A stretch of DNA of 14,414 nt from a bacterium. GTDB lineage: Bacteria > JAMCPX01. The notes beneath the pieces were generated by a model. That model did no database searches. It was given only the letters and a program-made list of their open reading frames with translations, and had not been told where the DNA came from. Each line of letters starts with the position of its first letter. The first letter of the stretch is position 1. This document shows, one piece after another, positions 7,248-8,115 of this stretch. The position numbers were made by a program, and so were the translations under genes. The stretch covers positions 1 to 14,414 of the forward strand of contig JAJYUJ010000049.1 of NCBI GenBank assembly GCA_021792615.1, in the 5' to 3' direction.

Positions 7248-7302
7248 GTTCGCGCCGCCCCAACATTCCCGTCCCGCCAACGGCGGGAGGGTCAAGGCGA
7301 AC
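7248..7302. repeat. REP-like two-part GC hairpin
   Basis: The outer stem GTTCGC (7248-7253) pairs with GCGAAC (7297-7302). The inner stem TCCCGCC (7272-7278) pairs with GGCGGGA (7282-7288) around a 3-nt loop. It is GC-rich against AT-rich surroundings, which is typical of repetitive extragenic palindromes. Copy number elsewhere in the genome is unknown. Confidence 0.5.
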
Positions 7303-7351
7303 TATGCGATTAACCCGAAAAATACGATTGTAAAATAAGGAGGTTTATGCA

Positions 7352-7429
7352 ATGAGCGATAATCCCGCGTCAGATAAAGGTATTCTTCGAAAATCCGATG
7401 AGGAAACCATACCTGGTAATTGCATATAA
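7352..7429 (+). CDS. Possible 25-codon small ORF inside the inverted repeat
   Basis: An ATG 8 nt after a perfect AAGGAGG opens a 25-codon frame (begins MSDNPASDKG) that ends at TAA just before the nested element. No family is recognised. The peptide is hydrophilic with no membrane segment. The ribosome binding site belongs to the block repeated in the other arm, where no ATG follows. It could be the 5' remnant of a gene once carried by the element, interrupted when the nested MITE inserted, or chance. Translation is unproven. Confidence 0.3.
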   Translation: MSDNPASDKGILRKSDEETIPGNCI

Positions 7430-7525
7430 ACCCCGTTGGAAATGTCAGAATAATACAGATTTTTTTATAATAAATTTTCAATCTATTGTCGTACAAATTA
7501 TCATCTGCTGAGTTTCTAACGGGGT
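7430..7525. repeat. 96-bp MITE-like element with ACCCCGTT ends
   Basis: It begins ACCCCGTTGGAAA and ends with the complement of ACCCCGTTAGAAA; the similarity continues inward through TCAG on both sides. The interior is very AT-rich (runs of T/A around 7461-7480). No ORF and no transposase. Short palindromic elements with such ends are plausible non-autonomous repeats; the family name is not known to me. Confidence 0.5.
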
Positions 7526-7539
7526 AAACATACACAGGA

Positions 7540-7578
7540 CTGAAATCTCGTTTCTCTATGGAAATGTTTAGATTTCAG
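7540..7578. repeat. Hairpin within the right arm of the large repeat
   Basis: CTGAAATCT (7540-7548) and AGATTTCAG (7570-7578) are perfectly complementary; inside them TTTC and GAAA can extend the stem after small internal loops. Confidence 0.5.
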
Positions 7579-7650
7579 GTGGATCGCGGGATTGAGCGAA
7601 TAAGTAAACCTCCTTATTGCATTTTTCGGGTTAACATGTTCGATACCAAC

Positions 7651-7684
7651 GAAGAAGCCACGCTGTTTACAGCGTGGCTTCTTC
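7651..7684. terminator. Perfect 15-bp hairpin, possible terminator upstream of the PilZ gene
   Basis: GAAGAAGCCACGCTG (7651-7665) and its exact complement (7670-7684) are separated by TTTA. On the plus strand the stem is followed by a T-rich AATTTCTCTT, though not a clean U-run. It would insulate the PilZ gene from transcription coming out of the repeat region. It could equally be another mobile palindrome. Confidence 0.45.
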
Positions 7685-7770
7685 AATTTCTCTTGTCGCA
7701 TAGTATGCTTTATCGGGACAGCGGTTTTTTCTTGCAAAGTAGCTCCCGTTGTGTAATTTGTATATCATAT

Positions 7771-8115
7771 ATGGAATTTTACAGTGAGAAAAGGAAAACG
7801 AAACGGATTGATACCAGGCTGAGGGTGAATTGCAGAAAAAGCGGTGTATTCTTTTCTGATTTTGCAAGGGATATCTGTCTGGACGGTATTAAGGTGGAAA
7901 CACCAGCACTGCTTGGTAAAAACATGGAGGTAGAGCTATCCTTTTATCTGCCCGATGAATCGGATCCTATTATTGTAAAGGGCAGGGTTGTCTGGTCGGG
8001 TGTGGAAGAACATACGAACTTTAATTCTGTCCTCGGCATAAAATTCGAAGACCTGAGCGAAACCCACCGCAGCATGCTCGTAAACTTTATAGAAAATCGC
8101 GGCACAGACGCGTAG
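7771..8115 (+). CDS. Small PilZ-domain protein
   Basis: Single-domain PilZ protein of 114 aa; PilZ domains bind cyclic di-GMP and usually act in motility, exopolysaccharide or biofilm control. From the ATG at 7771: an N-terminal basic RxxxR site (RIDTR, residues about 12-16), then RDICLDGIKVET, the counterpart of the D/NxSxxG motif with Cys in place of Ser, then the beta-barrel strands (VELSFYLP, IVKGRVVWSG) and a closing helix (SETHRSMLVNFIENR). The frame is open further upstream to 7558, but that part runs through the repeats and is not PilZ-like. No clear Shine-Dalgarno precedes 7771. It stands alone, convergent with the glycosyltransferase at 8177; a link to the polysaccharide cluster is only positional. 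Confidence 0.82.
   Translation: MEFYSEKRKTKRIDTRLRVNCRKSGVFFSDFARDICLDGIKVETPALLGKNMEVELSFYLPDESDPIIVKGRVVWSGVEEHTNFNSVLGIKFEDLSETHRSMLVNFIENRGTDA

Follow-up and report, generated by a model that had tools for sequence, protein, structure and literature searches.

Related elements and the locus

Bacterial MITEs such as MITEAba12 (PMC6382973) and the TIMEs (PMC4133298) are miniature inverted-repeat elements, short and non-coding, with terminal inverted repeats, target duplications and presumed movement in trans. The eukaryotic piggyBac superfamily targets and duplicates TTAA (PMC7351741), and piggyBac trees have taken IS1380 transposases as their prokaryotic outgroup (PMC10813416). REP and BIME are palindromic intergenic repeats. 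The inverted repeat in the window (the whole stretch of 14,414 nucleotides that was analysed) bears a likeness to each of these: it has the anatomy and putative trans movement of the MITEs, the TTAA target and duplication of piggyBac, and a flanking double hairpin that resembles REP and BIME, and its presumed mover, at locus L135 of a relative, has a probable transposase of the IS1380 family (NF033539 / PF13701), CCC ends and a TTAA duplication.

Very probably, the locus holds a non-autonomous MITE on which a DDE transposase of the IS1380 family acted in trans, the nested compound having spread as a unit, a reading that starts from observed copies, ends, duplications, empty sites and an insertion sequence with matching ends. 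The puzzling inverted repeat is explained as two nested miniature transposons and is ordinary in kind; both MITE families are new, and the outer of the two is linked to a transposon of IS1380 type. The remark in the earlier note that no element with such a structure had been described is too strong, as the anatomy is that of a MITE.

Organization of the nested element

The features of the locus are as follows, with positions in the window.

7260-7309 (limits approximate), no strand: left part of the target, first hairpin of the double-hairpin repeat that holds the MITE; uninterrupted in the related species G003
7310-7313, no strand: left target-site duplication TTAA; a single TTAA at the orthologous empty site of G003
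7314-7325, plus strand: left terminal inverted repeat CCCGAAAAATAC (family consensus CCCGAAAAATGC); same ends on the insertion sequence in L135
7334-7347, plus strand: left box 2, AATAAGGAGGTTTA; complementary to 7605-7618 and co-varying with it across copies
7352-7429, plus strand: mini-ORF of 25 codons, ATGAGCGAT...ATATAA; nothing clearly marks it as a gene
7361-7369, plus strand: left box 3, AATCCCGCG; complementary to 7585-7593
7427-7430, no strand: TAAA, duplicated target of the nested element (left copy); supported by uninterrupted copies of the outer element and by the target duplications at free members of the nested family
7431-7524, no strand: nested second MITE, 94 bp, ends CCCCGTTGGAAA and TTTCTAACGGGG
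7525-7528, no strand: TAAA, duplicated target of the nested element (right copy)
7585-7593, minus strand: right box 3, CGCGGGATT
7605-7618, minus strand: right box 2, TAAACCTCCTTATT
7619-7630, minus strand: right terminal inverted repeat GCATTTTTCGGG
7631-7634, no strand: right target-site duplication TTAA
7635-7684, no strand: right part of the target, second hairpin GAAGAAGCCACGCTGTTTACAGCGTGGCTTCTTC of the same double-hairpin repeat

The repeating unit covers 7310-7634, 325 bp including both TTAA, around a core of 317 bp (7314-7630), and the core of the simple form, which lacks the nested element, measures 219 bp. The unit opens with TTAA and CCCGAAAAAT... and finishes with ...ATTTTTCGGG and TTAA, its ends reading TTAA, CCCGAAAAATGC...GCATTTTTCGGG, TTAA, with a 4-bp target duplication and no transposase gene. 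The inverted repeat that had been placed at 7298-7642 is real, with its true limits at 7310-7634 and the extra bases belonging to the target; the three pairs of blocks described as identical in both arms are all exact (TTAACCCGAAAAAT at 7310-7323 and 7621-7634, box 2 at 7334-7347 and 7605-7618, box 3 at 7361-7369 and 7585-7593).

Its neighbours are rpsB (minus strand; Ribosomal_S2, E 5.3e-100) and, from about 7771, a PilZ-domain gene (plus strand; E 1.9e-15). A reading frame at 7558-8115 begins within the MITE and continues in frame into the PilZ gene, probably by chance. The MITE core, short and without a transposase as in MITEs, matches no protein family, and scans of the window gave no Rfam match at the gathering score and nothing for tRNA.

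Regarding the palindromic element seen in the middle, it is indeed present and nested, with a length of 94 bp rather than the 96 bp first given, and it lies between TAAA duplications at 7427-7430 and 7525-7528. Copies of the outer element without the insert read GCATATAAACATAC at the insertion point. The end ACCCCGTTAGAAA is found in 8 of the 9 genomes of the bacterial family, often as facing pairs about 85-110 bp apart; identical flanking 4-mers, mostly TNNA, bound 13 of the 26 copies examined, and free copies show the 4-bp duplications TAAA, TTTA, TCAA, TTGA and TGAA. The nested element is a second, independent MITE family, for which no mover was found.

Copies and distribution

Copy counts come from sequence searches of the host genome, which comprises 2.54 Mb in 77 contigs and is 99.55% complete. 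With window 7250-7700 as the query, 68 matching pieces were found in it, the copies taking two forms, a simple one of 227 bp and a compound one of 325 bp that carries the 94-bp insert. The 14-base end has 156 host matches with up to 2 mismatches against 26 for a reversed control, and the 16-base end, present in all 9 family genomes, has 82 with up to 1 mismatch against 0 for the reversed control; this excess, together with the dozens of copies, indicates that the inverted repeat is not due to chance. The 227-bp query matched 9/9 genomes of the bacterial family and 0/32 outside it, and collections of plasmid, phage and viral contigs gave no match to the MITE. Among the genomes searched, the outer family is confined to one bacterial family. 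A repeat family with conserved boxes, one of the readings offered by the earlier note, is borne out, and a single-copy sequence without homologues is excluded.

Among the host elements with enough flanking sequence, joining the flanks gives a frame of at least 100 codons across the junction in just 5 of 35 (two of these being mispaired ends), so most host copies are intergenic. Several MITE copies lie at contig ends. Very short forms also occur (L061 1050-1109, L070 2027-2087 and G005:C5:141-170), the shortest of which, 30 bp in G005, is a back-to-back pair of overlapping ends. A 1.16-kb pair of ends in L075 was considered as an autonomous copy and rejected, as it encloses an apparent NAD-dependent epimerase-like gene and no transposase.

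Target duplications and empty sites

The bases immediately outside CCC...GGG are mostly TTAA, and of the 86 elements bounded by two ends, 57 have the same 4-mer on either side. Even among the 43 elements that do not have TTAA on both sides, 14 match (TTCA/TTCA, TGAA/TGAA, TCAA/TCAA, TTTA/TTTA and ATAA/ATAA), compared with 4.2 on average and never more than 12 in 10,000 shuffles.

Empty sites were found at four places in G003. At the window locus, where the flanks are 94-97% identical, this species reads GGCGAACTATGCGATTAACATGTTCC, with a single TTAA and no element; three further host insertions are absent from it, each leaving one target 4-mer, and one insertion is common to both. The comparison of the two sequences shows insertion since the separation of host and G003, seamless loss being less likely, although a seamless excision could also leave a single TTAA.

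The sequence that the MITE entered is in turn repetitive: it consists of two hairpins, GTTCG..GGCGAAC and GAAGAAGCCACGC..GCGTGGCTTCTTC, and has 21 matches in the host and copies in all 9 family genomes. Between the host and G003, whose copy lies in L145, the second stem differs by a compensatory change. The double-hairpin repeat is also nested within the 94-bp element in L082 and L083, and probably in L252.

Candidate transposase

The relative G006, unlike the host, carries an autonomous element whose ends match: a 1628-bp insertion sequence at L135 1085-2712, with perfect TTAACCCGAAAAATGC ends of 16 bases and TTAA on both sides, encoding a probable IS1380-family transposase in two overlapping frames (1197-1460 and 1414-2580). 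NCBIfam NF033539 (IS1380) is by far its best family, with E 3.7e-49, the larger frame alone reaching 167.5 bits, below the cut-off of 180 set by NCBIfam, and the N-terminal frame separately 22.9; the match to PF13701 (E 6.9e-23, score 81) is above the Pfam cut-off of 34.7. This is the only full-length insertion sequence with matching ends, and its transposase is split in two frames. A second, partial copy on another G006 contig has neither gap nor indel where the frames join, so both copies share the layout in two frames, either as an inherited frameshift or as a programmed one.

The last (right) 25 bases of this insertion sequence equal the MITE end at 25/25 in L120 and at 23-24/25 in many other copies, and a 3'-end remnant with the same right end occurs in G007. 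Inside, the two share no further sequence, and since only about 20-25 terminal bases are common, the MITE cannot be derived from the L135 element by simple internal deletion. The same ends, the TTAA duplication and the IS1380-type transposase of L135 together make an IS1380-type transposase the likely mover of the MITE, which would have moved in trans, now or formerly.

In the host genome, the cognate transposase that the earlier note proposed to look for is missing: the IS1380 search found no intact gene, just a weak relic on contig C18 without MITE ends, and no DDE_Tnp_1 (PF01609) was found. The mover is thus absent from the host assembly, and intact IS1380 genes are rare in the bacterial family. 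Weak transposase matches in G002-G004 (e.g., L129) were rejected as the mover because their ends differ. Other IS1380-type transposase genes, at L132 1464 (G006) and L127 2025 (G008), lie near a different end-like sequence, TCAACCTGAAACCTGC / TAAACCTGAAACCTGC, which suggests that a second lineage of IS1380 shares this style of target. A limited literature search found no published IS1380-driven MITE.

In the proposed sequence of events, an IS1380-family DDE transposase would recognise the CCCGAAAAATGC ends and join them to TTAA-like 4-mers, duplicating the 4-mer. Earlier, a 227-bp MITE would have received the second MITE, of 94 bp, with its TAAA duplication, and the 325-bp compound would then have spread as a unit, until one copy inserted at TTAA in the linker of the double hairpin, in the gap between rpsB and the PilZ gene, after the split from G003. 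Through coupled changes, the arms remain complementary.

Coupled evolution of the arms

The arms were compared in an alignment of 52 simple copies from the bacterial family. Box 2 varies by subfamily yet matches between the arms, as GGAGG/CCTCC, GGAAG/CTTCC, GGGAAG/CTTCCC and GCGAAG/CTTCGC. Pairing of the arms is held in 95.6% of cells, with 13 pairs showing double changes, and the double-changed cells number 86 against 27.5 when shuffled and 7-15 when slid. On a tree of the remaining columns, only 135 in number, such changes occur repeatedly, as in columns 29/254, with 7 changes on the left, 5 on the right and 7 jointly. Among imperfect pairs, G-U exceeds A-C by 63 to 25 cells, 46 to 23 parsimony events and 29 to 19 distinct types; the first two counts are suggestive of selection at the RNA level, the third is not. 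Moreover, some copies (L076 10828-11077, L062 12308-12803 and L097 1072-1418) carry a hairpin segment of 21-23 bp, GGGGTACCC...GGGTCG, in the left arm, and others (L217-L226) carry it at the equivalent position of the right arm, which points to exchange between the arms. The most conserved part is box 1, that is, the two ends (mean majority share 0.95-0.96), as would be expected for binding by a transposase.

As boxes 2 and 3 change jointly in both arms, it is the complementarity that is kept and not the letters AAGGAGG, which had been taken for a ribosome-binding core; in other copies, this motif is replaced by GGAAG, GAAAG, GGGAAG or GCGAAG, usually matched by the other arm, and a role as ribosome-binding site was rejected since the motif is not kept across copies. 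The likeliest cause of the coupling is template switching between the inverted arms, a known mutation process (PMC8794818, PMC8604942), or a need for the arms to pair, rather than a ribosome-binding role, and selection on the blocks, as formerly suggested, is one of these two readings. It is unlikely that the coupled boxes 2 and 3 represent a selected hairpin (structured RNA or DNA) on a TTAA-targeting IS1380, piggyBac-like element.

The left arm sequence AAGGAGGTTTATGCAATGAGC opens a frame of 25 codons in the host's own genus and of 50-57 codons in many G008 copies. The synonymous share of changes is 0.24 against 0.235 expected in the own genus and 0.356 against 0.241 in G008, a weak excess, and the frame has no protein family match. 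With no clear coding signal in the codon changes and no family matches, it was rejected as a gene and is taken to be incidental to the box sequence; it could also be what is left of a lost gene.

Alternative explanations

A structured RNA, once transcribed, or a hairpin used by the host, with arms under selection and transposition having merely spread the element, is improbable but the strongest of the alternatives. The 95.6% pairing, the 86 double-changed cells against 27.5 shuffled, the recurrence of coupled changes on the tree and the surplus of G-U over A-C by cells and events all speak for selection on the hairpin; against this, the surplus is small by distinct pair types (29 vs 19), Rfam has no match, the copies lie in many unrelated places and template switching during replication can homogenise arms without selection (PMC8794818, PMC8604942). 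Derivation from a different, unseen transposon with similar ends and the same 4-bp target preference, not an IS1380 element, has little probability: the inner MITE sequence has no counterpart in the L135 insertion sequence and intact IS1380 genes are rare in the family, but perfect 16-base ends with a TTAA duplication do stand on an IS1380-type element.

The thought that the repeat might be the 5' regions of two ordinary genes in inverted order, each with ribosome-binding site and start, is excluded by dozens of copies at unrelated loci, and together with its variant, a small gene carried on the element, it would be very improbable. AAGGAGGTTTATGCAATGAGC does resemble a start region and its frame reaches 50-57 codons in many G008 copies, but the synonymous share is about that expected in the own genus and only weakly raised in G008, no family matches, and in the own genus, where the element has spread all the same, the frame mostly ends after 25 codons. 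Least probable of all is a REP/BIME-type repeat mobilised by a RAYT (HUH) transposase, a link raised in the earlier note. Such a repeat would likewise be intergenic, palindromic and high in copy number, and the separate flanking double hairpin looks REP-like; however, 4 bp of the target are duplicated, where a REP/RAYT element would insert without duplication, the empty sites hold a single copy of the target, and the ends are common to a DDE transposon, all of which fits an IS1380-type transposase.

Comparison with known systems

Interest in the locus lies mainly in ends that match a bacterial IS1380-type transposon and in arms that evolve in step, the latter being the unusual point that is worth a specialist's time, as the dozens of copies offer a direct test set for template switching versus selection on pairing. 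Terminal inverted repeats, target duplication, dispersed copies and insertion polymorphism, as in MITEs, were all found. Compared with the IS1380 family, the window element has no transposase gene and shares only the terminal 20-25 bases, and, unlike piggyBac, its family also targets TGAA, TCAA, TTTA and ATAA. It differs from REP and BIME in making target duplications and in having the ends of a DDE transposon. MITEAba12 and the TIMEs have other ends and another transposase, whereas the window holds two unrelated nested families whose compound has itself spread, and the arms of its MITE change jointly beyond the ends.
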